Assembly: GCA_035529075.1 (NCBI GenBank)
Contig: DATKXK010000010.1
Span: 353,401 to 417,400, forward strand
Reading direction: 5' to 3'
DNA: 64,000 bases
Source: Acidobacteriota bacterium
GTDB lineage: Bacteria > Zixibacteria > MSB-5A5 > GN15 > FEB-12
Each line of letters begins with the position of its first letter. The first letter of the stretch is position 1. This document shows, one piece after another, positions 20,755 through 36,686 of this stretch. A program made the position numbers and the translations under genes. Below the pieces are notes generated by a model. It was not told the DNA's origin, ran no database searches, and saw nothing but the letters and a program-made list of their open reading frames with translations.

Positions 20755-20773
20755 ACTCCCGTGGCCCCGGTGG

Positions 20774-20797
20774 CCCATCCGCTTGCGGTGGGTTTCT
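20774..20797 (+). terminator. terminator, identical to the one after tRNA-Leu (copy at fragment A)
   Basis: The stem CCCAtCCGC / GCGGTGGG (one bulged T) is followed by TTTCT. The surrounding 30 bp, from GTGGCCCA to TTTCTGA, is identical at 24274-24297 and after the intact tRNA-Leu at 36687-36710. Confidence 0.7.
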
Positions 20798-20822
20798 GAT
20801 TGCTTTTGCGAGACCCCCGGGC

Positions 20823-20930
20823 AAAAAACTCCCTTGCGGTGCATTTTTGATCTTCGTAACCTATTGCCGGCCGGAACGGTGGCATGGGCAGACACCCGGG
20901 GCTTGGGAAAAAATTCCGGCGATTCGGCTT
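20823..20930 (+). repeat. tRNA-Leu promoter and 5' part, fragment A
   Basis: TTGCGG (20834-20839), 17 bp and TAACCT (20857-20862) match the tRNA-Leu promoter. The tRNA 5' part follows with an 11-nt shortening shared only with fragment B, running into GACACC and an anticodon-arm remnant CGGGGCTTGGG. From 20902 it continues into CTTGGGAA...TTCCGGCGA, a non-tRNA sequence shared with fragments B, C and F. The 3' half of the tRNA is absent. Confidence 0.85.
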
Positions 20931-21082
20931 CTGACTGAACCACAACACAATACGAAATGGGGAAGGGCGTTGACGCCCGAAGCTTCAAGTACTACTTCGC
21001 ATTGATTTGGACCATTTTGGACACGAATTAGCCACATTTTGGCCACATGAGCATCACGAGAGTTATAGGCAGTGCCGGGGCA

Positions 21083-21856
21083 CTACGGCCGTATCGCCAT
21101 CCATGTCACATAGACTGATGTCAAATCATCAATAGATGTTCCATCACTGTACTTCGACACTGTAATATCAAACCCAGTCCAGTTACCGGCGGAGCCTTTT
21201 ACGTCCGCAACCGCCTTGATCGCTGCACCCTCAACGAGCCCATTGGCAGCTCCTCTTAAGACAACAGTGAGGAACATGTGCGGCTTTTCGGTGCTCGTGA
21301 ACGGACTTCCGAAATCTATTGTCGTTAGTCCATAATGCTCAATCATATCAGCATTCACCACACCATCGAATGCACCCGACTCACCGATACTCGAGACAAC
21401 CACCCCCGCCGAGTCGGCATATTTGGCATAATCAGCCTGCCACGCCTTGTAGGCGTACGGTGCTGAACACAAACGGGTCCGCGGTGCCAACTCCGGGTCC
21501 TCACCGACCTGAATGCCCAGCCATAGGTCAGGGTCGTTGGTGAATGTCCAGGGGGGCAGGCCTTCCTTTGATCCAAGCTGCCAGTTGAAAAGACCGTTGA
21601 CAACCAGGACCGTGCACGATGGGCTGATCCACTCCCGATCGGTCGGGGCGGTGCTGAGCGAATCATTCCAGATCCTGAAGGTGAGCACGTAATCGCCGTC
21701 GGTGACCGGGTTGTGGTCGGTGTCGGTAAGCCTCCCCTGGTAGTTGATCAGGTGGGGGACACCGTCCAGAACCTGGGTCACACCGTTGGACGCCGGCATG
21801 AAAGCGGCACAGAGCAGAAGTGCCCCTGCCGCGCGGTAGATGTTCCTGCGTCGCAT
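21083..21856 (-). CDS. secreted tail-fibre-like protein
   Basis: The 257-residue product has a signal peptide (AAGALLLCAAFMPASNG) and the motif HLINYQGRLTDTDHNPV followed by DGDYVLTFRIWND, a secreted beta domain seen in many proteins of FCB and related bacteria and resembling phage tail-fibre or collagen-like stalk openings. The middle (APYAYKAWQADYAKYADSAG) resembles the region before the receptor-binding part of such proteins. The C-terminal 80 residues form a beta-rich domain I cannot assign. It is the first gene of module A-B and is transcribed against the tRNA promoter remnant, with its own minus-strand promoter at 21928-21955. Confidence 0.65.
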   Translation of the reverse strand: MRRRNIYRAAGALLLCAAFMPASNGVTQVLDGVPHLINYQGRLTDTDHNPVTDGDYVLTFRIWNDSLSTAPTDREWISPSCTVLVVNGLFNWQLGSKEGLPPWTFTNDPDLWLGIQVGEDPELAPRTRLCSAPYAYKAWQADYAKYADSAGVVVSSIGESGAFDGVVNADMIEHYGLTTIDFGSPFTSTEKPHMFLTVVLRGAANGLVEGAAIKAVADVKGSAGNWTGFDITVSKYSDGTSIDDLTSVYVTWMAIRP

Positions 21857-22509
21857 GTTTCTATCTCCCGTTTCGATTCGTTTTTTTCGCCTGTTGATGA
21901 TAGGTCAGAGATGTACGATCAACTTATAAGATAGGCATTGCAGCCTATGTTGCAAGAGGCAGATTGGGCGGAATGCTTATGGCCGCTCGTGAGGCTTCCG
22001 GCTCAAGGCTCGAAGTCACTGATAATCATGCAGTTGGCGCAGGGACCTTTTACTCGGGAGTCTCAGCTTTGTGAGTTTTGCCAGGAAAGAATTTGGACTC
22101 TCGGGCAACATTTTGACGAAACCTGAGAACCTCGGGACCCGTAAGGCATATTACTAGTCTGACAACAAGATGTAACATCCTGGAAATGCCATGACAGACA
22201 ACTGGATTCCGAAGCGCAAAACTATAGTAGGTCCTGTCTACAGAGCGATTCTTCAAGTTACTGAGTCGGACATCTGCTCTGGAATTCTGTCGTCAGGAGC
22301 GCTTCTTCCGCCTCAGGGTGAAGCGGCCGACAGGCCGGGAGGGGCTCAGAACCCTGCCGGCGGAGACAGCATGAGTCGCCGGACGACAGGACCCTGGCTG
22401 ATGGACACATTGGTCGGTTAAACGTGAATTTCATCTATAAGAATTGTCTGAAAACATGCCCAGTCAATTACAGGAACTGATATGGGCGATGAATCGTAGG
22501 AGGGTCAAG
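21857..22509. other. divergent intergenic region
   Basis: No gene recognised. It carries the minus-strand promoter for the tail-fibre-like gene, with a small palindrome ATAGGC...GCCTAT (21931-21948) inside the spacer that could be an operator, and the ribosome-binding site for the WD40 gene (AGGAGGG at 22498-22504). Confidence 0.4.
21928..21955 (-). promoter_or_regulatory. promoter of the tail-fibre-like gene
   Basis: Reading the minus strand, TTGCAA (21955-21950), 16 bp and TATCTT (21933-21928) form a plausible sigma70 promoter about 70 bp before the start codon. The inverted repeat ATAGGC/GCCTAT overlaps the spacer. Confidence 0.45.
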
Positions 22510-24129
22510 GTGGTTGCACGCATTCTCACGAGCTTACTCGCAGGCAAGTCCGGTCATTTCAGGCCCCATTTCATGCTCAGCCTTGCGATACCGGCGTTTG
22601 TCGGAGGTATTCTGTTTGCAGGTTCAGAAGCGGTCGGTGCCGGAGCGGAAGCAGCCAATTTTCCGTGCGTCATCACAACCGAAAATGCCTCAGAGGTCCA
22701 GTTAGTAGAGACGCTGAGCGAGCATACCGACAGAGTCTGGACCGTGGCTTTCAGCCCGGATGGCAGTCTGTTGGCCTCGTGCGGAGAGGATGGATCGGTG
22801 ATCGTTCGACCGGTCGACACCCTTAGTTCTACGACTGTGTTGACGGCTAGTTATTGGGTGATAGGTTTGGCCTTTAGTCCTGATGGTCAGGTGCTTGCCT
22901 CGGGAGAATACGTCGGCCCGATACGCCTATGGGATGTTGCAACAAGTACCCAGATAGACATGTTGATGGGTCATACCCAGGGATGTTGGAGTCTGGATTT
23001 CCAGGAGAGTTCCGGGACGTTGGTCTCCGGGAGCTTAGACGGCACCGTTAAACTGTGGAACCCGTCCACCGGTGCACTTATCAACACGCTTGAGGGCCAC
23101 TCGGGAGCGGTGTTGTCGGTCGACTTCAGTCCCACCGAGGACCTGATCGCGTCATCCGGAACCGATTATGATATCTGGCTTTGGAATAGCCTGAACGGCG
23201 ACTCGGTACGTGTTCTTGAAGGCCACACGGAGAACATAGGGTTCGTCAAATTCAGCCCGTCCGGTACTCATCTGGCTTCCTCGGCGGATGACGGGACCGT
23301 CCGCCTCTGGGACGTGGCGACTGGTGATCAGGTGTGGAGTCAAAATGCCGGGCAAAGTTGGGTGAACTGTGTCAACTTCAACCCCGACGGCACCCTCCTG
23401 CTTACGTGCGGCCATAACGGCTCGGTAGTCCTGAGAGAAGCCGCCACCGGCAATGAGCTGCGCCGGTTGACGGATCACACCGAGCAGGTCTTACGCGGTG
23501 CATTTCATCCGGGAGGCGCGATGTTCGCCACCGCCAGCTGGGACCAAACTGTCCGCATCTGGGCGATCCCGACATCCATCGGCTCGACAAGCCACACTCC
23601 CGTCGAACCCTTACCGACCGACTCGGTCGTGGTGCTTTCGCAGGTGTCCGAATGCGGGGGCATCACCAGTGTCACACTCCATTACGACATCGGAGCCGGG
23701 TTTCAAGCTGTTCCCATGTTCGATGACGGCGCTCATGGCGACGGATCGGCCGGTGATCTCACCTTCGGAGCAAAGATACCTCCCGTACCGCTGGGGTCTT
23801 CAGTAAAGTACTATGTTTCGGTCATGGATAACGATGGTGCCACAGTCGTCGATCCTGTCGGAGCTCCTGATGTCTGCCACGAGTACACCGTTCCGTGCTG
23901 TGTAGGTGTTACCGGCAATGTGGATGCTGATCTGGGGAACACCATAGACATTGGCGATCTTACCGCGCTGATCGGATACTTGTTCATTCCACCGAACGAT
24001 GTGCCCGCCTGTATGGAAGCCGCGAACGTGAATGGCGACGAGGGTGGCGTGATCGACGTGGGCGATCTGACGGCTCTGATCAGGTACCTGTTTATCCCGC
24101 CTAATCCATCACCGGTAGACTGCGGCTAA
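22510..24129 (+). CDS. secreted WD40 propeller protein with dockerin-like end
   Basis: Seven WD repeats (for example HTENIGFVKFSPSGTHLASS ending VRLWDVAT) make a complete beta propeller. It is followed by the beta domain AVPMFDDGAHGDGSAGDLTF shared with the protein at 7326-8393, and then two dockerin-like calcium loops (GDLTALIGYLFIPPN and GDLTALIRYLFIPPN). The paired dockerin end is a hallmark of secreted Zixibacteria-type proteins and probably anchors or assembles the protein outside the cell. I chose GTG 22510, with AGGAGGG five nt upstream, giving a basic N-terminus and a signal peptide (LSLAIPAFVGGILFAG); the frame opens earlier (TTG 22444, ATG 22456). It is the last gene of module A-B. 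Confidence 0.8.
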   Translation: MVARILTSLLAGKSGHFRPHFMLSLAIPAFVGGILFAGSEAVGAGAEAANFPCVITTENASEVQLVETLSEHTDRVWTVAFSPDGSLLASCGEDGSVIVRPVDTLSSTTVLTASYWVIGLAFSPDGQVLASGEYVGPIRLWDVATSTQIDMLMGHTQGCWSLDFQESSGTLVSGSLDGTVKLWNPSTGALINTLEGHSGAVLSVDFSPTEDLIASSGTDYDIWLWNSLNGDSVRVLEGHTENIGFVKFSPSGTHLASSADDGTVRLWDVATGDQVWSQNAGQSWVNCVNFNPDGTLLLTCGHNGSVVLREAATGNELRRLTDHTEQVLRGAFHPGGAMFATASWDQTVRIWAIPTSIGSTSHTPVEPLPTDSVVVLSQVSECGGITSVTLHYDIGAGFQAVPMFDDGAHGDGSAGDLTFGAKIPPVPLGSSVKYYVSVMDNDGATVVDPVGAPDVCHEYTVPCCVGVTGNVDADLGNTIDIGDLTALIGYLFIPPNDVPACMEAANVNGDEGGVIDVGDLTALIRYLFIPPNPSPVDCG

Positions 24130-24273
24130 GTATCGGTTGCCGGTGTTCAGTCAAACCCGGACCCTGCGGCGCGGCGGAGCCATCCGGAGCGTGCAAACAC
24201 AACCGTCGTGTGTCCCATCATTCATGGTGGGTATCTTTTTCTGAAGCGATTGTAGTCACTGACCGCCCGGTGG

Positions 24274-24297
24274 CCCATCCGCTTGCGGTGGGTTTCT
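24274..24297 (+). terminator. terminator, identical copy at fragment B
   Basis: Same stem (CCCAtCCGC / GCGGTGGG) and TTTCT tail as at 20774-20797 and 36687-36710. It lies 145 bp after the WD40 gene and directly before tRNA-Leu fragment B. Confidence 0.7.
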
Positions 24298-24322
24298 GAT
24301 TCCTTTCGCGAGACCCCCGGGC

Positions 24323-24430
24323 AAAAAACTCCCTTGCGTTCCACTTTTGGTCTTTGTACCTTATTGCCAGCCGGAACGGTGGCATGGGCAGACACCCGGG
24401 GCTTGGGAAAAGATTCCGGCGATTCAGCAC
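24323..24430 (+). repeat. tRNA-Leu promoter and 5' part, fragment B
   Basis: TTGCGT (24334-24339), 17 bp and TACCTT (24357-24362), then the shortened tRNA 5' part as in fragment A, ending CGGGGCTTGGG. The non-tRNA sequence CTTGGGAA..GATTCCGGCGA follows at 24402-24422. Fragments A and B are alike over about 150 bp including the terminator, so they are sister copies. The promoter reads toward the SPARTA operon. Confidence 0.88.
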
Positions 24431-24592
24431 GTGACAGACATCCAACGCATCCCACCGCAGGGCAGGGGGATAGGGCGGATTGGTTTGAGTGTTACGTTGG
24501 ATGGTTTTGTATTGATTTGGGCGGAAAGTAGTTACTGCTTGGTCACAACCTAGTGCCTATGTTCCACCCATCTGTAGGACACGCGAAACAAT

Positions 24593-25996
24593 ATGAGAAA
24601 TTTCGTTTTTCTTAGTCACGCGAATCCCGAAGATAACGATTTTGTATGGTGGCTAGCCCTGCAACTTGCGAGGCGCGGGTATAACGTTTGGTGTGACCTG
24701 ACAAGGCTTCTAGGGGGAGAGGACATATGGAAGGATGTGGAAACAGCGATTAGGGATGGTTGCTCAAAGTTCCTATACGTACTCACAAAGACGTCGAACG
24801 CAAAGACGGGACCGCTGCAGGAGCTTCAAGTAGCTCAGAGTGTTGCTCGTGATCATGGCCTACAGGATTTCATAGTTTCTCTGCATCTTGACGATTTGCC
24901 ATACCGGGATATCAATATCCAACTAGGTCGAATCGAGGCTATTCCATTTGAGGAGAGTTGGGCCAGCGGGCTGGGCAGACTGCTGAAGAAACTTGCGGCC
25001 CACGGCGTGCCAACCGACCGCCGGCTAACACCAGACTGGGTAACGTCCATGTGGGCGGTAACAGGCAGCAGGCAGCGAATCATTCGACAGCGGCAGGAAC
25101 ACCTCACAAATTGGTTTCGAATAACGAAGCTGCCTAAGGAGCTACACGTACACAGTTTGCGCGACTCAGTTGGCCGGCCGGATCACCTAGTCCTGGAGAC
25201 ACAGTTCCCGGTAATCGTACATAGAAACAGCCTGGTTTCGTTCGCATCCGAGGAGGATTTGCCAGATAGTGCGAGAAAGGCGGTATCTTGTACCCGTCGC
25301 CTAACCATATCATCGACTGACCTGATTCCGGTGGCAAGAGCGGGTGGATCAGGTAGGCGCGACAATATACACCGTTTCGTGTCCCGACTGCTAAGGTCAG
25401 CGTGGGAAATCATGCTTAATGAGCGCGGGGTGCCAACATACTCACTGTCAAATCGCACAAAGTGTTTCTATTTTACAGAAGATATTCTTAGAGGAAAACG
25501 AATTGACTTTCAAGGTGTGGATGGAGCAAGAGCTCACCGTCAGCTCATTGGGTTCAAGACTGTGGGCAAAAAGAGTGTGGGCGGTCGCGCAAAGAGAATG
25601 TGGCATTTTGCGCTTAGCTCTAGGCCGTTACTTCATCCAGAACTAGCATATGTTATAAGACCGCACGTGTTGTTCTCTGATGATGGGGTAACCATTTGGG
25701 AGAGTAAGGAGCGGCTGCATGCCGCCCGACGAAGTCAGTGCAAAGATTGGTGGAATGATGACTGGAGAGATCGTATCCTTGCCGGTGTGATGTGGCTGAG
25801 TGACGGGGCGGATATGATTCAGTTACCAATCAGCAATGATGCAACACTTCATGTAGAACGCTCGCCTGTTATCGTGTCAAGTCCTGTGACCTATGCAGGA
25901 CCTGTGTCTGTTGAACTGGAAACGTTTGACGAACACGAGGACGAATCTGACGTTGGTACTGAAAACTGGGAATATGATGAGAGCGATACATCCTAG
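24593..25996 (+). CDS. TIR-APAZ protein of a SPARTA immune system
   Basis: The 467-residue protein joins a TIR domain (residues 1-135: NFVFLSHANPEDNDFVWW, then GEDIWKDVETAI) to an APAZ domain. W46 and E50 have the W-x3-E spacing of bacterial TIR NADases, making E50 the likely catalytic residue. The APAZ part shows its hallmarks RMWHFALSSRPLLHPELAY, VLFSDDGVTIWESKERLH and WWNDDWRDRILAGVMWL. In SPARTA systems TIR-APAZ pairs with a short Argonaute and, on RNA-guided recognition of invader DNA, oligomerises and destroys NAD+, killing or stalling the cell. The last 28 residues are strongly acidic (13 Asp/Glu), like the autoinhibitory tail described for SPARTA. The stop lies 3 nt before the Argonaute start. 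The DNA is visibly more AT-rich than the flanking chromosome. Confidence 0.93.
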   Translation: MRNFVFLSHANPEDNDFVWWLALQLARRGYNVWCDLTRLLGGEDIWKDVETAIRDGCSKFLYVLTKTSNAKTGPLQELQVAQSVARDHGLQDFIVSLHLDDLPYRDINIQLGRIEAIPFEESWASGLGRLLKKLAAHGVPTDRRLTPDWVTSMWAVTGSRQRIIRQRQEHLTNWFRITKLPKELHVHSLRDSVGRPDHLVLETQFPVIVHRNSLVSFASEEDLPDSARKAVSCTRRLTISSTDLIPVARAGGSGRRDNIHRFVSRLLRSAWEIMLNERGVPTYSLSNRTKCFYFTEDILRGKRIDFQGVDGARAHRQLIGFKTVGKKSVGGRAKRMWHFALSSRPLLHPELAYVIRPHVLFSDDGVTIWESKERLHAARRSQCKDWWNDDWRDRILAGVMWLSDGADMIQLPISNDATLHVERSPVIVSSPVTYAGPVSVELETFDEHEDESDVGTENWEYDESDTS

Positions 25997-25999
25997 ACG

Positions 26000-27508
26000 A
26001 TGAGACTTCTCTACATACAGGAGCCGCTAATTCAATTTGGGTATGAGCAGAAGCTCGAAGATCCGCGAGACGGGCTCACTCTGTTCGGCCCACTAGACCA
26101 GGGCAGACCGTATGGCATTAGAATAGGTGTTGTTGGGACCGCCGACGGCGTACGGCGGTTCAAAGTGTGGGCTAGGCGGATGCAGTCTCCAATCTCCAGC
26201 ATGCCTTCTACTGTTGCCCACCCTCTTTTCCCAGGATTCGAAGCTGCATTTCTGATACCGTGGGCCTCTGAACCAGCACTTGAACTCGAGGTTTGCACGG
26301 AGACATTGAACAGACAACTGCGTCTCGATGATAAGTATCAAAGAGTCTTCGAGACGGTAGATCTTTTCGTAAAGCCAATTGCGACCGCTTTGCGTGAAGA
26401 AGAAACTACAGTGGATGTGTGGTGTGTGATGATTCCAGACGAAGTCAAGACGTACTGCAGGCCGAAATCGTTTGTGCAGGTCGATAGGAGAATCGTAGCT
26501 AGGTCTAAACTACCTTTCAAGTACGCTAAGAAGCTCAGAAATGAACCGTCATTGTTTAAGGAGGATAACATAAAGGCAAGACCTTACCACTACGAGGTCA
26601 ATTTCCACAATCAGTTAAAGGCTAAGTTGCTGGAGTATAATGCTCCTACTCAGATAATCCGTGAGAGCACAATCATCCCCGAGGAGTTCACAGATAGCCA
26701 AGGTAGACCAAAGCGAGATCTGTCACCAATGCTCTCTGATATAGCGTGGCACTTGTCAACCGCGTTTTTCTACAAAGCCGGCGGTCGCCCATGGAAGATT
26801 GGTGAAGTGCGCGAGAATGTCTGCTACATTGGACTTGTATTTAAGCAGGACGTGCGGTATTCTGATCCACGTTCAGCATGTTGCGCAGCGCAGCTGTTTC
26901 TTGATTCCGGTGATGGCATCGTCTTTAAGGGAGATGTTGGTCCGTGGTACAACAAAAAGTGGGGGGAGTTCCATCTTAACCGTGCCGCGGCCCGCGATCT
27001 GGTCCGAATTGCTATCGAGACGTACAGTGAAAAGAGAGGCTCCGAACCAAAGGAGTTGTTCTTGCATGGAAAGGTGAGATTCAATGATGAGGAATGGTCT
27101 GGATTCAGAGATGGCGTCGGGTCCAGTACCAACCTCGTCGGAGTTCGTATTCGCGATTCAGATGACATAAAGCTTTATAGTAAACTTGACCACCCGGTCT
27201 TGCGGGGACACGCATTGGTCGTGGACGAGCATACGGCCTATCTCTGGACCAAGGGGTTTGTACCTCGACTTCAAACCTACCCGGGGAGGGAAGTGCCACG
27301 GCCGCTTCTCGTGGAGGTGTGTCGTGGAACTGCCTTAATAGAGACAGTTCTCAAAGATATTCTGATACTAACAAAGCTTAACTACAACGCGTGTCGTTTC
27401 GCTGATGGGTATCCTGTAACGCTGAAATTCGCCGACGCAGTTGGTGAGATTCTGACTGCCGGACCTCTGGAAAGGGTTCCGCCCTTGCCGTTTAGGCACT
27501 ATATCTGA
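26000..27508 (+). CDS. short prokaryotic Argonaute (MID-PIWI) of SPARTA
   Basis: The 502-residue protein has the length and layout of short pAgos: an N-terminal MID-like part (VDVWCVMIPDEVK, then YHYEVNFHNQLKAKLLEY) and a PIWI domain ending LTKLNYNACRFADGYPVTL and PFRHYI at the extreme C-terminus. PAZ and N domains are absent, as expected. The DEDX catalytic tetrad of slicing Argonautes is not apparent, so it should bind guide RNA and target DNA without cutting and switch on its TIR-APAZ partner. Start ATG 26000 follows the TIR-APAZ stop by three nt, so the two are co-translated. tRNA-Leu fragment C lies about 135 bp downstream, ending module B-C. Confidence 0.92.
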   Translation: MRLLYIQEPLIQFGYEQKLEDPRDGLTLFGPLDQGRPYGIRIGVVGTADGVRRFKVWARRMQSPISSMPSTVAHPLFPGFEAAFLIPWASEPALELEVCTETLNRQLRLDDKYQRVFETVDLFVKPIATALREEETTVDVWCVMIPDEVKTYCRPKSFVQVDRRIVARSKLPFKYAKKLRNEPSLFKEDNIKARPYHYEVNFHNQLKAKLLEYNAPTQIIRESTIIPEEFTDSQGRPKRDLSPMLSDIAWHLSTAFFYKAGGRPWKIGEVRENVCYIGLVFKQDVRYSDPRSACCAAQLFLDSGDGIVFKGDVGPWYNKKWGEFHLNRAAARDLVRIAIETYSEKRGSEPKELFLHGKVRFNDEEWSGFRDGVGSSTNLVGVRIRDSDDIKLYSKLDHPVLRGHALVVDEHTAYLWTKGFVPRLQTYPGREVPRPLLVEVCRGTALIETVLKDILILTKLNYNACRFADGYPVTLKFADAVGEILTAGPLERVPPLPFRHYI

Positions 27509-27644
27509 ACCGGACAGGTGCCCGGCTACGAGGTTTGAGGCCAAAAAGTGGCTTTTTGCTGCTGGCTTTCGGATACCGGTCTGATGAGGCTATCTAGTCT
27601 ACCCATTTGCAGCTACATAGGATTTGGTCGGCGCCACGGGAGCC

Positions 27645-27756
27645 AAAAACCCCCTTGCATCTCCCGCAGCCCACATCTAACTTACTGCCGCATCATTGAT
27701 TGCCGGAATGGTGGAACGGGCAGACACCAGGGACTTAAGAACTGATCCCGACGAAA
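27645..27756 (+). repeat. tRNA-Leu promoter and 5' half, fragment C
   Basis: TTGCAT (27655-27660), 17 bp, TAACTT (27678-27683), then 18 nt to GCCGGAA at 27702. The tRNA 5' half is full length and matches the intact gene through ACACCAGGGACTTAA (27724-27738). It then leaves the tRNA and runs into GAACTGATCCCGACGA. It is the best-preserved fragment and marks a sharp break at the anticodon loop. Confidence 0.92.
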
Positions 27757-27987
27757 AGGCATCTGACTGACGATCAATACAGTGCGATGTATAGAAAGGG
27801 TTCAATCATACTTGTGTAACGATTGCTCTGTATCAGCTTGGGCTGTTTTGGTGCAAGAGTGGTCCCAAGTTGGTCACAGAGTAGTTGGTAGCCTCTATGT
27901 TACTGACAATGACTGGGTGATTCGTCCAGTCTCAAGCGACGCCGAAGACTGATTCTCTGGTGTGGACAGGTTCAGCGCAGAAGACGG

Positions 27988-29034
27988 ATGAAAGCGATGA
28001 AACTAGACATTCAACGACTTGCGGACTGCATTGAAAACCAAGCTGAGCCGGAACCTTTCTCCGGTGTGGTTTACTTGACCAAAGGTGCAGAAGTCCTGTT
28101 TGAAAGAGCATGTGGGTTTGCGATCAAGTCGGAGTCGATTATCAACAAGATCGACACTAGATTTCAGATGGCATCCGGGTGCAAGATATTCACCGGTGTG
28201 GCCATCTGTCAGCTTGTGGAAAGTGGTAAGCTTGGATTTGACTCCCTTCTAAGTGAGAACATCGATGCGGAGTTTCCGAACTATTCGCCGGACATTACTA
28301 TACATCAATTGTTAACGCACAGTTCAGGTATAACTTCCTATTTTGAAGAGGATGTTGATCCCGATTATGAAGCATTGTGGCGAAATACGCCGATCTACAA
28401 CATTAGAAGTCCAAAGGACTTCCTCCCGTTGTTTCAATCGAAACATATGAAGTTCTCGCCAGGGGAGAAGTTCGAATACAACGATGCAGGATTCATTCTA
28501 CTGGGCCTGGTGGTTGAGAGTATCACTGGTATCGACTTCTCAGAGTATATTCGACAGAACGTGTTTAATCCGGCTGGGATGAGAGACTCGGGGTACTTTT
28601 CGACTGACCAACTACCGGAAAGAACGGCCTATGCCTACATCAAGAAGAACGATGGTACTTGGCGAACAAACTTCTTTGCAGTTCCAATTACGGGAGCACC
28701 CGATGGTGGTGCATATACCACTGCGCCGGATATGGCCAAGTTTTGGAGGGCGCTTCTAGAGGGTAGGCTCCTGGGCGATGAGATGACAGGACAAATGATG
28801 GAAGCGAAGATTGTCTCGTTGTCAGACCCAACAAGTTCCCATTATGGTTACGGTGTATGGATTGACCAGTCAGATGGGAAGAAGAGAAAGGTTCTTGTTG
28901 TAGGATACGATCCGGGAGTCGCGATGAAGTCAGCATGCTATTTGGACGAGAGTGTTACTCTCACCGTAATGGGTAATACGTCTGAAGCTCTGTGGCCTAT
29001 GTACAGGAAGATTGAGATGATGCTGGGTCTTTAG
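27988..29034 (+). CDS. serine hydrolase (class C beta-lactamase family)
   Basis: The 348-residue protein has the SxxK motif SGCK in FQMASGCKIFTGVAIC and the matching tyrosine region FEYNDAGFILLG (the usual YxN appears as YND). These motifs place it in the beta-lactamase/DD-peptidase (PF00144) superfamily, whose members hydrolyse peptides, esters or beta-lactams. No signal peptide is visible, so a cytoplasmic esterase or peptidase is more likely than a secreted lactamase. Start ATG 27988 (or 27997). It is the only gene of module C-D and, like SPARTA, is AT-rich compared with the chromosome. Confidence 0.82.
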   Translation: MKAMKLDIQRLADCIENQAEPEPFSGVVYLTKGAEVLFERACGFAIKSESIINKIDTRFQMASGCKIFTGVAICQLVESGKLGFDSLLSENIDAEFPNYSPDITIHQLLTHSSGITSYFEEDVDPDYEALWRNTPIYNIRSPKDFLPLFQSKHMKFSPGEKFEYNDAGFILLGLVVESITGIDFSEYIRQNVFNPAGMRDSGYFSTDQLPERTAYAYIKKNDGTWRTNFFAVPITGAPDGGAYTTAPDMAKFWRALLEGRLLGDEMTGQMMEAKIVSLSDPTSSHYGYGVWIDQSDGKKRKVLVVGYDPGVAMKSACYLDESVTLTVMGNTSEALWPMYRKIEMMLGL

Positions 29035-29901
29035 GCTACTCTCAGAACAAGCAGTTCGATCTACCATGTCACAAGCTCCGGTAGCCCCAGATTTCTTCCA
29101 GGTCTCAAGTTCTCTGGAGGAAGCCAGGGCTACAACAGAGCTTAGATACGTTGTGTGTCCGACTCCGCTACGGTTTTTCCTACACGCGAAACGTAATCCA
29201 CGGTACTCGAAGAGCCTCAATCATCAGCTCCGGAAAGGTTCCTGGATAGGGCCTGCTCGCGGTCTCATTGATCTTCGAGCATGCTTGTGATAAGAAGTTT
29301 CATCGCCGTAATATGATAATCAATGGAGGTCAATGGACGGCGGGACACCAGGGACTTTTTGTCCCTTGCATTTCTCTCCAAACATTGATAACTTCTTGTT
29401 GGATCGTCAATTGCCGGAGTGGTGGGTTGATTTGGGCCGTTCTGGAGCGAAAACGGTCCTGAACCAATCACAGCGATAGATCCCCGAAAGTACGTCGATT
29501 GTAATCCGAACTCACAGGAGGGGGCGGAAAAGCCCGCGGAGGAGGGCCGAGTGGGAGCGAGTCTGCCGTGGAGGCCGAGCCGCCATGGGCCAAATCCGGC
29601 CTTCGCGCCGACCCGGTTTGCTGCTTCTCGGTAAGGTGAGAAACGAGACCACTGGAAGAAGACCGCCGTCGGGCAAAGCTGCGGCCTGGGGATCAATTTC
29701 AGGTGCGGATTCGCTTAAGGCGTACAGGGGACACCTGACTCAACATCAGTCCTAATCGACTCATTTATAATGCCTTAGCCGGGATAGGGTATGGGGGAGA
29801 AATTTATGGAAATTATTGGGAACTTAATAGTAGTATCTACGTAGTAATATCCTGTAATTAGCACTATAAGCCAGCTTGCAATACCGTGAGAGGCCAATAA
29901 G
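29035..29901. other. gene-free region containing fragments D
   Basis: Apart from the tRNA-Leu fragments at 29344-29428, nothing here looks coding. A purine-rich segment at 29515-29570 and flanking self-complementary GC tracts may fold, but I recognise no RNA family. The stretch before the PadR gene (29770-29890) is AT-rich and probably holds its promoter. Confidence 0.35.
29344..29428 (+). repeat. tRNA-Leu fragments D1 and D2, back to back
   Basis: D1 is the tRNA piece GACACCAGGGACTT (29344-29357). It joins directly to D2, a promoter with TTGCAT (29366-29371), 17 bp and TAACTT (29389-29394), then 18 nt to GCCGGAGTGGTGG (29413-29425), after which tRNA similarity stops. The D1-D2 join lies at TCCCTTGC, a sequence that occurs both in the tRNA anticodon arm and at the promoter -35 region of the intact gene. 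Confidence 0.75.
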
Positions 29902-30267
29902 GTGACAGGAAGCGAATCGGCCCATAAGAAATTCCAGAAGGAACTGAATTCCGGGACTGCTGCGTTGGTCCTGTTGAGTGTTCTGGAGCGGGCTTCCGAG
30001 CCCATGTACGGATACCAGATAGCCAAGCATATTGAGGCCGGGCGTGACGACGTACCGGTCAAGCAGGGCGCGCTGTACCCGGTACTCAGATCGCTTGAGG
30101 GCGCGGGCCTGTTACAGAGTCACGTGGAACCCTCCGTGTCGGGTCCGCCCAGACGTTACTATCGGATAACGGATATGGGTCGTGATACACTCAGACGCTG
30201 GGTAGAGATCTGGGATCAGACAAGAGCATTTGTAGATGATACGTTGAAAGGGGATCAGAATGGATAG
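29902..30267 (+). CDS. PadR-family transcriptional regulator
   Basis: The 121-residue protein is a winged-helix PadR regulator: LVLLSVLERASEPMYGYQIAKHI, KQGALYPVLRSLEGAGLL and PRRYYRITDMGRDTL are its recognition and wing elements. It starts at GTG 29902. It overlaps the next gene by 8 nt, a standard arrangement in which PadR represses its own operon with the membrane partner. PadR proteins dimerise and release DNA when a ligand binds. It is the first gene of module D-E. Confidence 0.9.
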   Translation: MTGSESAHKKFQKELNSGTAALVLLSVLERASEPMYGYQIAKHIEAGRDDVPVKQGALYPVLRSLEGAGLLQSHVEPSVSGPPRRYYRITDMGRDTLRRWVEIWDQTRAFVDDTLKGDQNG

Positions 30268-31150
30268 AGGAATTCCTGAGTACCTTGCTCAGCTAAGGGT
30301 AGAGCTGGCCGAAAGCGATCCGGCAACGATACAAGATGCCCTCTCGGACGCTGAAGAACATCTGAGCACGGCGCTGGCTAACGCACTCAAAGCAGCCCCG
30401 GATCTTGCGAGGAGCGATCTGCTGGAATCCATCGTGAAGAAGTACGGTACGCCTGCGGAGATTGCGGCGGCATATAAGGACATCGAAGCACACACAAGAC
30501 CGGTGTTGGAGATAGCGAGGTCAGGTGTGAGACGTTCTCGAACCTCCAGTTTCTATGGGGTAGTCGGTGATGCCCGGGCCTGGGGGTCACTGATGTATCT
30601 TCTGGTATCGATGCTGTTGGGCCTGGCCTATTTCTCATGGGCCGTAATTGGTTTCAGCCTCTCGCTGGAGTTGTTGATCCTGGTCATTGGGCTTCCCGTT
30701 GCCACGCTCTTTCTCCAGTCAGTAAGGGGCATTGGGCTTGTCGAAGGGCGCATTGTGGAGGCATTGCTGGGAGTTCGTATGCCGAGGCAACCATTGGTCT
30801 CACACCGGGAACTGGGCTGGTGGAAACGTCTTAAGATGCTGGTTAAGGACAAACGCACCTGGACGACTCTGGCGTACATGGTACTGTTGCTTCCTTTGGG
30901 GATACTCTATTTCACCATAGCCATTCTCATGTTTGCCCTTTCTCTTGAGTTTATAGCTGGTCCTATCGTCTTGAATGCTTTGGATCTGCCGTTTATCATG
31001 ATCGGGCATTACTCCATCTATCTGTCCCTGGAGTGGGCGCCGCTGCTCATGTTTGCAGGTATTCTGATTCTCATGGTGAGCATGCACGTGGCCAAGTTCC
31101 TTGGCCGGATGCACGCAAGGTTGGCCAGGGCGATGCTGATCAGACGCTGA
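30260..31150 (+). CDS. HAAS-domain membrane sensor protein
   Basis: The 296-residue protein starts inside the PadR gene. Residues 1-75 form a helical HAAS/DUF1700-like domain (YLAQLRVELAESDPATIQDAL, then SIVKKYGTPAEIAAAYKD), which typically accompanies PadR regulators. The rest has two pairs of membrane helices (SLMYLLVSMLLGLAYFSW and TTLAYMVLLLPLGILYFT, each followed by a second span), matching the putative sensor domain family seen with PadR and two-component systems. It probably anchors or modulates PadR or senses envelope state. tRNA-Leu fragment E begins about 95 bp after its stop. Confidence 0.8.
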   Translation: MDRGIPEYLAQLRVELAESDPATIQDALSDAEEHLSTALANALKAAPDLARSDLLESIVKKYGTPAEIAAAYKDIEAHTRPVLEIARSGVRRSRTSSFYGVVGDARAWGSLMYLLVSMLLGLAYFSWAVIGFSLSLELLILVIGLPVATLFLQSVRGIGLVEGRIVEALLGVRMPRQPLVSHRELGWWKRLKMLVKDKRTWTTLAYMVLLLPLGILYFTIAILMFALSLEFIAGPIVLNALDLPFIMIGHYSIYLSLEWAPLLMFAGILILMVSMHVAKFLGRMHARLARAMLIRR

Positions 31151-31244
31151 CACCAGGAAGTTATCTGCTCACACTGAGACCGTCGCTGCAGCCTTGGGCA
31201 ACACGCTTGACGTGTCAATACGAATGGGCCGCCCTTCCTCCGTC

Positions 31245-31316
31245 CAAAAACTCCCTTGCGTCCGCCAGCATCCCCATCTAACTTATTGACGCGACCGCGA
31301 TTGCCGGAGTGGTGGG
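31245..31316 (+). repeat. tRNA-Leu promoter and 5' end, fragment E
   Basis: TTGCGT (31256-31261), 17 bp, TAACTT (31279-31284) and 18 nt to GCCGGAGTGGTGG (31303-31315). The promoter and spacer (TAACTTATTGACGCGA) are identical to the intact tRNA-Leu, making this the closest relative of the working promoter. Similarity ends in the D arm, as in fragment D2. Confidence 0.88.
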
Positions 31317-31490
31317 CTGGTGAGCTCCCCTTGGATCGATTGCTCGGAGCCGCCCCGGCTGGCTTGATGTTCGCCCGCCTTCAGGCGGCTGTCGGGTGAT
31401 CCGGAAGGACAGGATGCAACATTTCGTGGTTTGATTCGGTCCAAAACAGAAGAGGCAGATCGAACGGTTCGGAGCAAACGGAGGTGACTG

Positions 31491-32441
31491 GTGAGACAGG
31501 CTGGTACGGTCATTAGGGTCTTACTTATTTGGGTTTTGGCAGCCGGAACGTCAGCGGCGGGCTCAGTTGGTCTGACTTACAATAATTACGGAATCAGAGT
31601 TGGCAACGCACCGATTGTCCACGGCCTGAGGATCAACGCAGTTGACCGGGATGTAGAACAGGTCGACGGTATCAACCTGACCTTCTGGGCGCCGCGGGGG
31701 AAGCACCCGAATCCGCGTTTTCGGATGAACGGTCTGGCGGTGGGGCTGACGGTTCCGGTGATGCACCATCTATCCGGCATGGGGGTTGGTGTCCTTGGCA
31801 TCGGTGCGGACAAGGTAAGCGGGATAGCAGTAGCCGGCCTCGGCGCCGGCATCGATGAGATGACCGGGATCGGTATTGGCGGCCTGGGATTAGGTGGGGA
31901 CAATCTGACCGGGTTGTTTGTGGGAGGTCTGGGGGCGGGTGCGGACAAGATAACTGGCGTTGGTGTCGGCGGCCTGGGAATCGGCGGCGACCATCTGGAA
32001 GGTCTTTTTATCGGCGGCCTGGGGGCGGGCGCGGACGAGATGATTGGCGTTGGCATCGGCGGCCTGGGAATTGGCGGCGACCATTTGCAAGGTATGTTTA
32101 TCGGCGGCCTGGGAATCGGCGGCGACCATCTGGAAGGCATGTTTGTTGGCGGTCTGGGTGCCGGTGGCGATGATCTCACAGGATTGTTTATTGGGGGTCT
32201 GGGCGTCGGGGGCGATCGACTCTCCGGCGTCGGTATAAGTGCGTTCACGATCCGGGTGAACGAATTACGGGGGATTCATATTGCCCCGTGGGTTCATGCC
32301 AAAGATGAGTCGAACGGATTCTCTGTGGCGCTGTTCAACTACTCACGCGAGCTACACGGCCTGCAACTTGGCATCCTCAACTGGGCCGGGAACCAGGAAG
32401 GGATATTGAGACTGCTGCCGCTGGTGAACTATCACAGATAA
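31491..32441 (+). CDS. secreted glycine-rich 15-residue repeat protein
   Basis: The 316-residue protein starts at GTG 31491 behind GGAGGTGA and has a signal peptide (VIRVLLIWVLAAGTSAAG). Residues 101-250 are ten repeats of 15 residues with the form GLGIGGDHLEGLFIG, expected to stack as a right-handed beta helix or roll. The ending HGLQLGILNWAGNQ...LPLVNYH is typical of the LA_2272-type surface repeat proteins found in Leptospira and FCB bacteria. Likely location: outer membrane or cell surface. Function unknown. At DNA level the repeats are 45 bp units, which makes the locus prone to copy-number change. Confidence 0.8.
   Translation: MRQAGTVIRVLLIWVLAAGTSAAGSVGLTYNNYGIRVGNAPIVHGLRINAVDRDVEQVDGINLTFWAPRGKHPNPRFRMNGLAVGLTVPVMHHLSGMGVGVLGIGADKVSGIAVAGLGAGIDEMTGIGIGGLGLGGDNLTGLFVGGLGAGADKITGVGVGGLGIGGDHLEGLFIGGLGAGADEMIGVGIGGLGIGGDHLQGMFIGGLGIGGDHLEGMFVGGLGAGGDDLTGLFIGGLGVGGDRLSGVGISAFTIRVNELRGIHIAPWVHAKDESNGFSVALFNYSRELHGLQLGILNWAGNQEGILRLLPLVNYHR
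31791..32240 (+). repeat. ten tandem 45-bp coding repeats
   Basis: In-frame units encoding 15 residues each, with the shared core GGCGGCCTGGG. Adjacent units are similar enough that slippage or recombination could add or remove copies without breaking the frame. Confidence 0.8.
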
Positions 32442-32574
32442 GCCGCCCGAGTCCATACTATGCGGCCGAACTTCCGCTACGAACGGCCCGGGCAGTTCAC
32501 CGTCACCTTTTCGTCCAATACTCGGTCACCGATTGAAAACCATGTAATCGCGGTACCGAAATTCTATCAAAGAG

Positions 32575-32964
32575 CAATCTCCTCAATTACGGTGCGGCAG
32601 CCTGGATCGCCAGGCGCAGTTCGTGTGCCAGGATATTACGGATCTGACCTTTCCCGACGCCACGTTCGACGCAATCTGCTCCTACTATACGATTATCCAT
32701 ATTCCCCGACAGGCGCACGAGGCCATCTTTCAGCAATTCTATCGTCTGCTTAAGCCGTCCGGTCTGGCTCTGCTCTGCCTGGGGGCAGAGGACCTGGAAG
32801 ATGACATCGTCGAAGATTATCTGGGCGTCCGGATGTATTGGAGTCATTACGACGTCGAGACGAACCTGGATCTGATCGTCGCGTCCGGATTTGTCCCAAT
32901 CTGGTCGCGAATCGTGGAAGATGCCACTTCGCCCGGGCCGGGCCACCTCTTCGTTCTGATATAG
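32575..32964 (+). pseudogene. class I SAM-dependent methyltransferase, 5'-truncated
   Basis: The frame encodes FVCQDITDLTFPDATFDAI, YYTIIHIPRQAHEAIFQQFY, LLKPSGLALLCLGAEDLEDD and MYWSHYD, which match the C-terminal two thirds of a small SAM methyltransferase. The N-terminal GxGxG cofactor loop is missing; upstream in this frame there is no plausible start before unrelated sequence. It is therefore a remnant, probably cut when module E-F was assembled. The first usable start (GTG 32623) would give a 113-residue protein unable to bind SAM. Confidence 0.65.
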
Positions 32965-33022
32965 AAGAAACAAACCTGACACCGGGGCGCAGTAAAGCAA
33001 ACGAATCCGTACTCTAGCTCGC

Positions 33023-33142
33023 GACAAGAGACTTGCGTCCCACGCCAACAAATCCTAACTTACTGCCGCATCGCTGATTGCCGGAGTCGTGGAACAGGCA
33101 GACGCCCGGGGCTTGGGAAGAGATTCCGGCGATTCAGCAGGC
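33023..33142 (+). repeat. tRNA-Leu promoter and 5' half, fragment F
   Basis: TTGCGT (33033-33038), 17 bp, TAACTT (33056-33061), 18 nt, then GCCGGAGTCGTGGAACAGG from 33080 through GACGCCCGGGGCTTGGG. The sequence CTTGGGAAGAGATTCCGGCGA follows (33112-33132), as in fragments A, B and C. Its leader TAACTTACTGCCGCATC matches fragment C, so C and F are sister copies. Confidence 0.9.
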
Positions 33143-33309
33143 GATAGACATCTGGGGCATTTCACCGGGCCGCAGTTACCCGATAGGGCTCCTGACCGAC
33201 AAGAGGGAGTAGACAGTGGGCTTTGGCGACCCAAGGGGTGAAGCCCACGTCCAGGTTTCATTTCTCACATTCCCCATGCCCTTTTGCTATAATGATCCAA
33301 TCAGAACCC

Positions 33310-36270
33310 TCATCTGCTCCGGTTGGTCATCTTATCCAGTCTGCCTCTGATTCGCAGCCGGAATGACTCACCTATGTTTCGGAGCTTCTCTTTGTCGACG
33401 ATCTCATCGATTCGTGGCAACAGAGCCTGGAGATCATCCTTTGAACCATGGTCAATTGCCTCTCTCCACATTGACTCTGCTCCATTGGTAAACGGGCTCA
33501 GATCGGCGTTGACGTCCTCATTGAAGACTCGCTCTGCCACCTCCAAGATCTTTCTCGTCAAAAACTCGAGCCAATGGAGCTTGTCCTTAGTCAGAATGTC
33601 TGCACCCCACAAGATTCGTATGTAGCGGGCAAATACTATTGAGAAACTACTCCAGTTCGATCCCGGTAACAGAAGTTGGTTACATAGATGATATGATCTT
33701 GGAGTGATCCTGTAGTCGTCGGCTGCTACAATCTCCGCTAGGTCTTCATGGTCAAATGACAAGAAGACGAAAAACCTCTCTGCCAACCTGCCCAGCACAG
33801 CCGAATATGCCCGCTTATCTAAATGACCAGCCTTCATCAGATGATCGATTAGAGAATAGATGTTAACTACTTGAACATTTTCTGACTGCAAGAACATCAG
33901 CAGCCGCAGATCATCGGTTACCAATGTAGTACCGTTGGCCTTCGCATACTTCAGGGTTTCAACTAACCAGTCACTCATGAAGGGGGATATATCACCGACT
34001 GTAAATGTGGCCTCTGACACATCATGAATAATCTCGACGCGATTGCTCTTTCGCAAGAATTCCCAGAGGCGCCGCAATTCCGGAATTTCGTGTATTAGGA
34101 GATCGTCCTGTATAGTGTGAAACAACTTCTCATGAACCAATACTCTCTTACCGCAGCGCTCCAAGAATCCAAGTAGATCTGATTTGGAAAGATCAAGCAA
34201 TGAGAGGTAATCTAACAGAATCGTATCGGAGCCTTCAAAAGTGCTTATAAGATTCCCAACGAAAGCAGCATCTGGTAAGGTCATATCGATGGTGAATTCA
34301 GGGTCATGGCGATTGCAGACGAAATCGGGATAGGTGCTGTTCGTATGATGCACTAGAACATAGGTTGGTACAGGGCTTCTCTTGAAGGATTCTCTCATGC
34401 GAACCCGTGCCCGCTCCTGATCGGTGAACATCTTCTTGATTTCATCCGTTAGTTGGCCGTGTTCATCTAGCGCCTTTACGGGGAAGACGATATTCTGCTC
34501 AGGAAACTCCTTCTGGAACGCAAGAAGGGAAGGTAGAAGCCTTCCAGCTTCGTCCTTACCAACCTGGCGTACGTACCGGAAAATGATGGCGCTGTAATTG
34601 GATAGAATCTCTTGTCGCACCGAGGCGCTAAGATTGGACTCATCGGCAAACCTCTTCGCGTGGTTCGCGGCGCTAATGGCTTCGGTCTTTCTATCAAGGA
34701 ACACGTTAATGAGAGCGACGTCGAGCCAGTAGTCCACATCCTTGTTTGCATTTGCCTCCTCTTCAAGATCTATTAAGATCCTGCGGGTTTGCTCTGGAGC
34801 GCCTTTATAGAGAAAGCGCTTTGCCAAAAGCTTCTTCTCGGGATATGAAATGGCACCGAAACCGGGATCATCTATCAGAGTGGTTAGAGCACTGTCAAAC
34901 TCTCGATTCTGCAACTGGGTGGTGAACTTAAGGAGGTTTAGGTGCTGGGCGAGTTCAGGAGGAAGCTCAGCACTGTCTATTAGACTCAGGGTTGCAGGCG
35001 CTTCGAGGAACTTTCCCAACAGCAGTTGGCACTGGACAATCCCAAGATGGATTTCGGGCATCAAGTACGGCTTATTCTGATCGGTTGCCAACCGTTCAGC
35101 CTCACGAAACAGTTTCAGCGCATTCTCAACATTTGATTTATCTTGGATCTCCGGGACCAATGCTAGGTTCTTGATATCACCTTCGTCTTTAACTGTAGTC
35201 TGGAGCAGGATGCGCGCCTTGATTGACAGGAGCTCCGGGTCCTCCGGCGTGTCTTGTAGAGCTTTGTCGCAGTCTTGCAGTGCAGTTGTGAGGTCACCTG
35301 TCTCTGCGCGCATCGATACGCTGAGCCGTACTACGGGCAGAACCTTAGAGGCTGCCTGTGTTAGGCGTTCGTCGAACCCGTCTATCAGATCAACACCTGC
35401 TTGCGAACCTCGGAGCCGATACGTCGCCCACACCATCGCGCTTAGCGGTGGCTCAAGTTCTGTCGCAGAGAGTTCCGTGTTGTTTTTTAGGGATTCCCAT
35501 ATGGCCGATATGGCGTTATAACCTCTTTGGATACTTTTCTTAGAATCCTCCTCGATATTGGCCAGTCCCAGATTGAGCTTAGCCAAGTAAAATGACGAGT
35601 CTTGATCCAAGGCTTGATGGAAGAACTTCTTAGCCAACTCCACATCGCCATGTTCATCTGGTTGATTATAGGAAACTCCTAAGTTGTTAAACACCCGAGC
35701 TCGTTCACGTTCAAGACCTGGTTCCTTTTTGATGTCAGCGAGTATCTCAAACAGTTGTGTTCGTGCCTCCTCAAACTGGCGACTGTGCAGATGTTCGAGA
35801 GCTTCTTTGATCCTACGCGAAATCTGTTGTTTTGCATCGTCCACATGCGACGGCACGACTCTGGTGTCAGTGGGAGTCAATGTTGGTTCAGGAGGTTCTA
35901 CTTGTCTAAAAGAAATGCTGCCAGATGGGGGAGGTGAGGGGGATTGCTCAGGCTGTTGAATCGCATTGTAGTTGATTGTTATTTTAAGGTTTTCAATTAT
36001 GTTATTCTGAAGAAGAGTTCCGCTAATCTTACTACCATCGTTAGTGTCAATAGATTGTTGCTGAAGAATGCCTTTAGTGTCATTCGTGGCACTTGGTTCT
36101 TTGGAAGACCGAAAAAGCAACCCGAATACGGCTACCGCGCAGGCGATGCTAGCAGGAACAGCAAATTCTGTCGGAATATCGACGAGCCAGTATTGACCGA
36201 AGAAGATAGCAAGTCCCGAAAAAACTCCTATTAGCGTGTTGCGCACCGATTCTTTCAATGTAAATCTCAT
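33310..36270 (-). CDS. large TPR protein with C-terminal PIN-like domain
   Basis: The product of about 986 residues has two membrane helices near the N-terminus (LIGVFSGLAIFFGQYWL and ASIACAVAVFGLLF), a proline-rich linker, then some 400 residues of TPR-like helices (ARVFNNLGVSYNQPDEHGD and others). The C-terminal third contains a PIN-like nuclease domain: acidic residues in TILLDYLSLLDL, LVHEKLFHTI and TTLVTDDLRLLMFL sit where PIN domains bind metal. TPR-PIN proteins of this type are predicted conflict (defence) effectors that cut RNA. I chose ATG 36270; the frame opens at GTG 36324. It is the only gene of module F-tRNA, on the opposite strand to the other cargo, and is AT-rich. Confidence 0.72.
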   Translation of the reverse strand: MRFTLKESVRNTLIGVFSGLAIFFGQYWLVDIPTEFAVPASIACAVAVFGLLFRSSKEPSATNDTKGILQQQSIDTNDGSKISGTLLQNNIIENLKITINYNAIQQPEQSPSPPPSGSISFRQVEPPEPTLTPTDTRVVPSHVDDAKQQISRRIKEALEHLHSRQFEEARTQLFEILADIKKEPGLERERARVFNNLGVSYNQPDEHGDVELAKKFFHQALDQDSSFYLAKLNLGLANIEEDSKKSIQRGYNAISAIWESLKNNTELSATELEPPLSAMVWATYRLRGSQAGVDLIDGFDERLTQAASKVLPVVRLSVSMRAETGDLTTALQDCDKALQDTPEDPELLSIKARILLQTTVKDEGDIKNLALVPEIQDKSNVENALKLFREAERLATDQNKPYLMPEIHLGIVQCQLLLGKFLEAPATLSLIDSAELPPELAQHLNLLKFTTQLQNREFDSALTTLIDDPGFGAISYPEKKLLAKRFLYKGAPEQTRRILIDLEEEANANKDVDYWLDVALINVFLDRKTEAISAANHAKRFADESNLSASVRQEILSNYSAIIFRYVRQVGKDEAGRLLPSLLAFQKEFPEQNIVFPVKALDEHGQLTDEIKKMFTDQERARVRMRESFKRSPVPTYVLVHHTNSTYPDFVCNRHDPEFTIDMTLPDAAFVGNLISTFEGSDTILLDYLSLLDLSKSDLLGFLERCGKRVLVHEKLFHTIQDDLLIHEIPELRRLWEFLRKSNRVEIIHDVSEATFTVGDISPFMSDWLVETLKYAKANGTTLVTDDLRLLMFLQSENVQVVNIYSLIDHLMKAGHLDKRAYSAVLGRLAERFFVFLSFDHEDLAEIVAADDYRITPRSYHLCNQLLLPGSNWSSFSIVFARYIRILWGADILTKDKLHWLEFLTRKILEVAERVFNEDVNADLSPFTNGAESMWREAIDHGSKDDLQALLPRIDEIVDKEKLRNIGESFRLRIRGRLDKMTNRSR

Positions 36271-36481
36271 TTGAGCGTTTTTGCTTGATACGCCTCCCTG
36301 ATTACGGAAGGCGGTCACGTCCACCTAAACAAATATAACTGCTTGTAATGCTGAGGTCGATCATAAAATCGCCTCTTGGTGTTCCCGGTCGCCGCCTGCC
36401 CCACCATCTGCCGCCGAGTACCCCATCTGCTTCCGGCAGGCCCCCCGGCTCCCGTCGCCGTTCCCCCACACAAAAACTCCC

Positions 36482-36510
36482 TTGCGTCTGCCGGGGGCGG
36501 CATCTAACTT
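36482..36510 (+). promoter_or_regulatory. promoter of tRNA-Leu
   Basis: TTGCGT (36482-36487), 17-bp spacer, TAACTT (36505-36510). The tRNA starts 18 nt further on. The same spacing (17, then 18) is kept in fragments C, D2, E and F, which shows that these were once working promoters. Confidence 0.85.
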
Positions 36511-36528
36511 ATTGACGCGACTCTGATT

Positions 36529-36614
36529 GCCGGAGTGGTGGAACAGGTAGACACCAGGGACTTAAAATCCCTTGCTTCGTAAGAGGCGTGCCGGTTCGAG
36601 TCCGGCCTCCGGCA
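36529..36614 (+). tRNA. tRNA-Leu (anticodon UAA)
   Basis: This 86-nt class II tRNA has acceptor stem GCCGGAG (36529-36535) / CTCCGGC (36607-36613), anticodon stem AGGGA/TCCCT, loop CTTAAAA with anticodon TAA at 36563-36565, a long variable arm (TGCTTCGTAAGAGGCG) and T arm GCCGG-TTCGAGT-CCGGC. CCA is not encoded. It decodes UUA and is the intact parent of the fragments at 20.8-33.1 kb. Confidence 0.97.
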
Positions 36615-36686
36615 TCTCCAATTATCCCCATTCGATATGTGACCATCCACACATAGCTGACTGCCCGCCAATCCATGATCGGGTGG

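Follow-up and report, generated by a model that had tools for sequence, protein, structure and literature searches.

What put the same non-tRNA sequence behind several broken copies of one tRNA gene? We address this question for a window of 64,000 nucleotides, the whole stretch of DNA analysed here, which comes from a 3.04 Mb genome whose named relatives are Candidatus Zixiibacteriota. Upstream of an intact tRNA-Leu(TAA) gene and on the same strand, the window contains a series of tRNA-Leu 5' halves, with the intact gene at the right end of the array. The initial annotation described four of these halves (fragments A, B, C and F) as running into a shared 21-nt block and took it for the left end of one element family. 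We conclude, with a probability of about 0.88, that the block is the left end of elements that insert by tyrosine recombination into the anticodon loop of tRNA-Leu(UAA), each replacing the promoter and 5' half of the gene. On sequence grounds we document the conservation of this left end, the crossover point, the replacement of the 5' half, the placement of integrases in relatives, the cargo and the recurrence of one cassette in a second genus.

The shared block belongs to a left end of about 155 nt

The block starts at positions 20902 (A), 24402 (B), 27734 (C) and 33112 (F). Past its first five bases, A, B and F are mutually identical at 17-18 of 19 nt and C matches them at 11-12 of 19; against the intact tRNA, the same 19 nt give 4 identities for A, B and F and 7 for C. 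The summed identity of the six fragment pairs is 88, whereas 20,000 random draws averaged 29 and reached 52 at most, so the block is present in all four fragments far above chance. Its extent had been underestimated: the shared sequence is real but continues for about 155 nt in A, B and C and about 75 nt in F.

Aligning the sequence past the fragments and searching beside tRNA-Leu genes elsewhere recovered the same left end, almost without gaps over its ~155 nt, after tRNA-Leu 5'-half fragments of many genera, in agreement with the proposal of a single element family. The profile of the 160 nt past each 5'-half fragment, in the window and its relatives, reads CTTAAAA, then AGCGATCCGGACGA, GCA, TGATTGA and CAACGCATT, and further along TTCAAGTATTACTTTGGATTGATTTGGATCGATTTGGAC and TGGTCACAAATTGGTCACA. 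It terminates with paired GGTCACA-type repeats that are similar to integrase arm sites, and we infer that they are such sites.

We summarized the left end in a model (R1) with 22 training rows, A, B and C included and F excluded. In the window R1 fits A, B and C over 155-158 positions and F over 75. The left end (attL, P'-arm-like) of the unit between A and B lies at 20894..21050 (87 bits, positions 1-157), that of unit B-C at 24394..24549 (89.8 bits, positions 1-156) and that of unit C-D at 27726..27882 (89.8 bits, positions 1-158), all three being training rows and, like the promoters, 5' halves, palindrome and intact tRNA below, on the plus strand. For the unit between F and the intact tRNA, which is not a training row, only the first 75 positions are found (33105..33178, 21.8 bits).

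The position of the block directly after the anticodon loop, and in C its partial restoration of the anticodon stem (GGGA ... TCCC), might be expected if it were an anticodon-loop intron or the continuation of a tRNA gene that is variant or split. We give this explanation next to no credence: RNA folds of the halves with the block are no better than those of shuffles (z -1.0 to +0.2), no 3' half follows the block, conservation continues to 155 nt with integrase-arm-like repeats, and a normal tRNA-Leu(TAA) is present. Nor did any uninterrupted variant tRNA carry the block as an extension, the intact tRNA-Leu genes of the examined genomes running into a normal 3' half.

Each displaced half follows its own tRNA promoter

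Reading the array from the sequence, we find A, B, C, E, F and the intact gene each behind a TTGCRN box, a spacer of exactly 17 bp and a TAMCYT-type box. The promoter of A (TTGCGG, TAACCT; 20834..20862) precedes a half at 20870..20904 that extends up to CTT, and that of B (TTGCGT, TACCTT; 24334..24362) a half at 24370..24404. Fragment C (27702..27736), with the core CTTAAGA, follows TTGCAT and TAACTT at 27655..27683. The remaining promoters all read TTGCGT and TAACTT: that of E at 31256..31284, ahead of a half cut in the D-loop (31303..31315); that of F at 33033..33061, ahead of a half at 33080..33114; and that of the intact tRNA at 36482..36510, which is also the right end of the newest unit. 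D2 (29413..29425) is likewise a 5' half cut in the D-loop. A seventh, decayed 5'-half fragment at 14913..14947, with an upstream TTGCGC-type promoter, was found in the sequence by a PWM scan (score 25.5). The intact tRNA-Leu(TAA) itself (36528..36616, ARAGORN) combines a 5' half from the newest unit with a chromosomal 3' half. Promoters of their own stand ahead of the fragments, and the intact tRNA is at the right end, so the promoter and 5' half of tRNA-Leu were replaced at each insertion.

We rejected the tRNA-like piece at 29344 (fragment D of the initial annotation) as a displaced half; it is a core-like right-end palindrome that is also found in other genomes. This anticodon-arm-like palindrome, GACACCAGGGACTTTTTGTCCCTTGCA at 29344..29370, overlaps the -35 box of the next promoter and occurs also in G027, G007 and G039. 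The near-perfect palindrome, GACACCAGGGACTTTTTGTCCCTTGCR, lies over the tRNA-promoter -35 in one type of right end (window 29344-29370, L042 11748, L043 5525, L041 15998) and is possibly a second core site. Separately, a hairpin-like 31-nt repeat, GGTGGCCCATCCGCTTGCGGTGGGTTTCTGA, has three unchanged copies near the array (20769-20799, 24269-24299, 36682-36712), and one similar copy lies upstream of a fragment in G033.

Fragments A and B have 184 nt in common at 89% identity, upstream sequence included, which would suit segmental or tandem duplication of the tRNA region without site-specific recombination. We consider such duplication hardly more credible than the variant-tRNA or intron reading. 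The copies end at the identical anticodon-loop base in many genera and run into a common non-tRNA arm, the fragments separate unrelated cargo, and in relatives integrases are found at the right ends.

The crossover lies in the anticodon loop

In several relatives (G029, G027, G016, G040, G007, G019), attL and the tRNA agree base for base across all 7 nt of the loop CTTAAAA and diverge beyond it, and the same loop-wide match is found at tRNA-Leu(CAA) in G019 and tRNA-Leu(TAG) in G037. These relatives place the crossover at the anticodon loop, where the initial annotation had put it from the window. Within the window, the shared part of A, B and F begins 7 nt earlier, within the anticodon stem (CCCGGGGCTTGGG compared with CCAGGGACTTAAA in the tRNA), so these three fragments, with cores that differ from the tRNA, cannot place the crossover alone. 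The departure from the tRNA directly after CTTAA, also proposed at the outset, is seen in C, but there it results from one A-to-G change, and less decayed relatives match through CTTAAAA.

The variant core CCCGGGGCTTGGG is common to fragments with different upstream 5' halves (A/B and F). Perhaps the three fragments are joined at a point further up, or perhaps a variant core was exchanged; comparison of the core with the Leu(CAA) and Leu(GAG) genes of the host gave no match. More generally, a displaced 5' half often has a sequence other than that of the intact one, while its junction with the left end falls at a constant point. Two features of tRNA islands are present, namely a fragment of the target tRNA as a far-end direct repeat (A, B, C, F, 14913 and relatives) and an anticodon-loop crossover (relatives).

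In the mechanism that we propose, an element would enter the anticodon loop of tRNA-Leu(UAA) by tyrosine recombination, with the block as attL and its P' arm, and its right end would bring its own version of the promoter and 5' half of the tRNA. Recombination within the 7-nt loop would strand the old promoter and 5' half on the left, where they would form a pseudo-half that runs into the block, and the incoming 5' half would complete the tRNA gene on the right. The following insertion would target the intact gene again, so that the array would grow at its right end.

Related integrases lie directly ahead of intact tRNA-Leu genes

Protein searches combined with PF00589 and ARAGORN identified integrases immediately ahead of an intact tRNA-Leu, both on one strand, in G012, G036, G010, G019, G017 and G047, and three times in G037. 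These belong to the Pfam family Phage_integrase (tyrosine type), and at the places where it was found in the order, the clade (at least 52% identity to the G012 member) lies 3-43 bp 5' of the intact tRNA-Leu, same strand. GGTCACA or GGACAC pairs occur at the 3' end of the integrase gene, with GGTCACAAATTGGTCACA in G012 just ahead of the tRNA promoter. In two loci (L050 5110-6193, L063 13761-14750) the integrase frame runs stop-free into the tRNA-Leu gene and the tRNA promoter is thus inside the integrase coding end.

Two complete, integrase-bearing elements carry the block at their far end, as expected of a left end: an 11.8 kb element at tRNA-Leu(CAA) in G019, with the N-terminus of its integrase missing, and an 8.7 kb element at tRNA-Leu(TAG) in G037, with an intact integrase open reading frame. 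The cargo of the G012 element (a TraG/TraD-type coupling protein, two Replic_Relax proteins and a RuvC-like protein) suggests that it may be mobilizable. The integrase clade probably acts on the ends described here.

The window array contains no integrase, its units being integrase-less relatives of integrase-bearing island members. Our searches of the host genome found no Leu-clade integrase, the best match having 41% identity over query 111-328; since no cognate integrase was found there, the window array may no longer be mobile. We rejected a partial integrase at one end of contig C10, which is only a distant match (29%). In IMG/VR there were no close relatives of the integrase, none exceeding 40%, and hence no sign of phages.

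Left ends recur across Zixiibacteriota

Fragments of tRNA-Leu 5' halves are present in many other genera of the host family and order. The left-end model, which uses sequence only, matches 32 of 80 genomes of the order and 44 of 132 genomes of the phylum (E below 0.001). Strong matches outside the training set include G071 (4e-32), G072 (4e-28) and G095 (3e-26), as well as G073.

The host itself has another left end, in better condition and accompanied by a tRNA-Leu 5' half (G000:C16:115400-115581), beside NUDIX and ThyX-like genes and apart from the only tRNA-Leu(TAA) found in the host. In G039, five consecutive minus-strand fragments (L041/L065, 2263-2283 kb) lie 550 kb from an intact tRNA-Leu(TAA) on the plus strand (L059, 1711 kb). 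Some arrays, such as these two, are no longer beside the tRNA, perhaps owing to inversion. Weak left-end-like arms also lie directly downstream of an intact tmRNA (L162 9287-9426) and tRNA-Cys (L160 8484-8597), the usual 3' position.

We searched genus g30 (G029, G064, G065, G066) for a clean empty site and found none, the left and right flanks not being adjacent in the other species. In this genus the left flank is common up to a few hundred bases from the left end and the right flank is elsewhere, with no tRNA-Leu(TAA) found beside it; none was found beside the shared left flank either in the three one-contig genomes G065, G064 and G066 (L334, L335, L333, L139).

Most units carry one gene or operon and no integrase

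In the window, unit A-B has a minus-strand gene beside its left end (21083..21856) and a plus-strand WD40 protein (22444..24129, Pfam). The sole cargo of unit B-C is a complete SPARTA system (24593-27508) on the plus strand, in which a TIR-APAZ protein (24593..25996; PADLOC 4e-122, PDB TIR-APAZ chains 2.8e-68) adjoins a short prokaryotic Argonaute (26000..27508; PADLOC pAgo_I 3e-197, PDB short pAgo 4e-159). Pfam further assigns a serine beta-lactamase-family gene as the sole clear cargo of unit C-D (27988..29034, plus strand), a PadR regulator and a sensor/HAAS membrane protein after D2 (29902..31150, plus strand), and, by TPR matches only, a large TPR protein in the unit between F and the tRNA (33310..36324, minus strand).

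Among the 24 closed units of Zixiibacteriota, integrases are found in 2 and absent from 22; a closed unit runs from a left end to the next 5' half, and the span of the window from C to F is counted as one because D2 and E are truncated. The integrase-less units measure 0.2 to 8.3 kb and mostly hold one gene or operon. One of them, a 2.2 kb one-gene unit in G016, has a complete left end and a right end with a GGTCCCA pair, promoter and 5' half; its gene encodes an M20-type peptidase, judged by eye. Other cargo includes a GmrSD-like gene with HEC-05 similarity (G039 unit), a HerA-type ATPase and an AAA protein (G007), a PHP-SMC protein (G029) and a RelA/SpoT-domain protein (G040). Defence-like genes are recurrent in this cargo, which was sampled rather than counted.

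Some cassettes recur between genomes. The beta-lactamase-family gene of unit C-D has a counterpart in G066, at 81% protein and about 80% DNA identity, which is likewise flanked by a left-end arm on one side and the next 5' half on the other; beyond the gene identity drops to 34-51%. For comparison, aconitase in the same two genomes has 69-71% nucleotide identity, and the array flank of G029 and G066, members of one genus, 67%. The end of the first gene of unit A-B is 74.5% identical over 314 bp to the single gene of a G027 unit, both genes adjoining the left end, and a third cassette gene is common to G016 and G072. These similarities support horizontal transfer of cassettes, without indicating the mechanism.

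How the integrase-less units arrived can be read in two ways, which differ on the trans-mobilization step only and leave the left-end reading untouched. Units of the window type would, we infer, have come in with, or been moved by, an integrase supplied in trans. In its full form this amounts to integron-like gene capture on an essential tRNA, with integrase-less and often defence-related cassettes inserted successively in trans, each taking over the tRNA-Leu(UAA) promoter and 5' half; we put it forward tentatively, at odds somewhat below even. The units could instead be decay products that arrived with an integrase and lost it by deletion, leaving cargo between dead att sites with no movement in trans, a possibility to which we give not quite an even chance. 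Integrase remnants directly ahead of a 5' half (G024, L052; G019, L063 2788-2892) and damaged members of the integrase clade (G036 with a stop, G019 and G017 without the N-terminus) favour decay. So do the truncated halves D2 and E and the short left end of F, all in the window, the removal of one half and most of its left end by a 1.7 kb difference between G011 and G034, and the failure to find a cognate integrase in the host. Against decay, many of the 22 integrase-less units keep full ends, as in the G016 unit, which favours movement in trans; unit sizes fit one gene or operon, and one cassette is framed by ends in two genera. Both readings fit the data.

A wider integrase lineage shares the 5'-replacing polarity

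An integrase-alignment scan of 84,980 species genomes yielded 79 loci. A tRNA follows right after the integrase gene on the same strand in 43 of 91 cases and on the opposite strand in 28 of 91. Polarity clusters on a tree of 86 integrases: the 'same' state requires 12 changes (shuffled mean 28.3) and the 'opposite' state 13 (shuffled mean 23.9), with none of 500 shuffles as low in either case. The Zixiibacteriota Leu integrases group among those of Omnitrophota, Aerophobetes and others, nearly all 'same'; the integrases of Nitrospirae, Deltaproteobacteria and Brocadiales are mostly 'opposite'. Support for the tree backbone is weak, and we therefore do not claim a single origin.

Upstream of 'same' integrases we found 5' fragments ending at nt 38-40 of tRNA-Tyr (Elusimicrobia, 29 kb), tRNA-Met (Firestonebacteria, ~36 kb) and tRNA-Ala (Omnitrophica, 7.6 kb); three other such loci (L176, L202, L191) have no 5' fragment within the DNA examined. 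The 'opposite' loci have 3' fragments starting at nt 28-32. Where it can be checked, the 'same' state thus reads as 5'-restoring.

Discussion

Islands that displace the 5' half of a tRNA have been counted before: among 3919 islands, Islander lists 159 with 5' fragments, together with four tandems of at least three members (PMC4383910), so that restoration of the 5' half is already known. As here, those islands combine a tyrosine integrase and tRNA target with an anticodon-loop crossover, a far-end tRNA fragment and a displaced 5' half (PMC4383910). Islander requires an integrase in each island, whereas here multi-unit arrays, mostly without integrase, recur across a phylum; unlike in the Islander set, an integrase lineage with 5'-replacing polarity spans many phyla.

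The nearest precedent for tandem islands often lacking an integration module is the ssrA islands (vcr islands) of Dehalococcoides, of which 16 of 31 have such a module (PMC3146451). They too are arranged in tandem at one RNA gene with gene fragments between them, many without an integration module, and carry operon-sized cargo (PMC3146451). They use the serine recombinase DsiB, the T-loop of tmRNA and a 3' direct repeat downstream of the gene, whereas the arrays described here involve tyrosine integrases and the tRNA-Leu anticodon loop, replace the promoter and 5' half, and lie upstream of the gene.

In layout, the arrays also resemble integron cassette arrays, in which one-gene or one-operon units, most without a recombinase, adjoin a single growth point. 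Here, by contrast, growth takes place at an essential tRNA gene, a piece of which comes with each unit. CIMEs and IMEs similarly include att-flanked units without a recombinase beside related units, but their definition does not involve reversed tRNA polarity, and the units here are only candidates for mobilization. What is new, therefore, is the phylum-wide occurrence of arrays of mostly integrase-less, operon-sized units together with an integrase lineage of 5'-replacing polarity; 5'-fragment islands themselves are known but rare.

The end sequence and a simple rule of order (promoter, tRNA 5' half, left end, cargo, promoter, 5' half) allow integrase-less cargo units to be delimited in unannotated genomes. 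Finders of the Islander type discard such units because an integrase is required. The cargo that becomes visible in this way includes defence systems such as SPARTA. Across many candidate phyla, it is the front of tRNA genes that the integrase lineage replaces, not the back, and the promoter of a host tRNA would thus be supplied by a mobile element.
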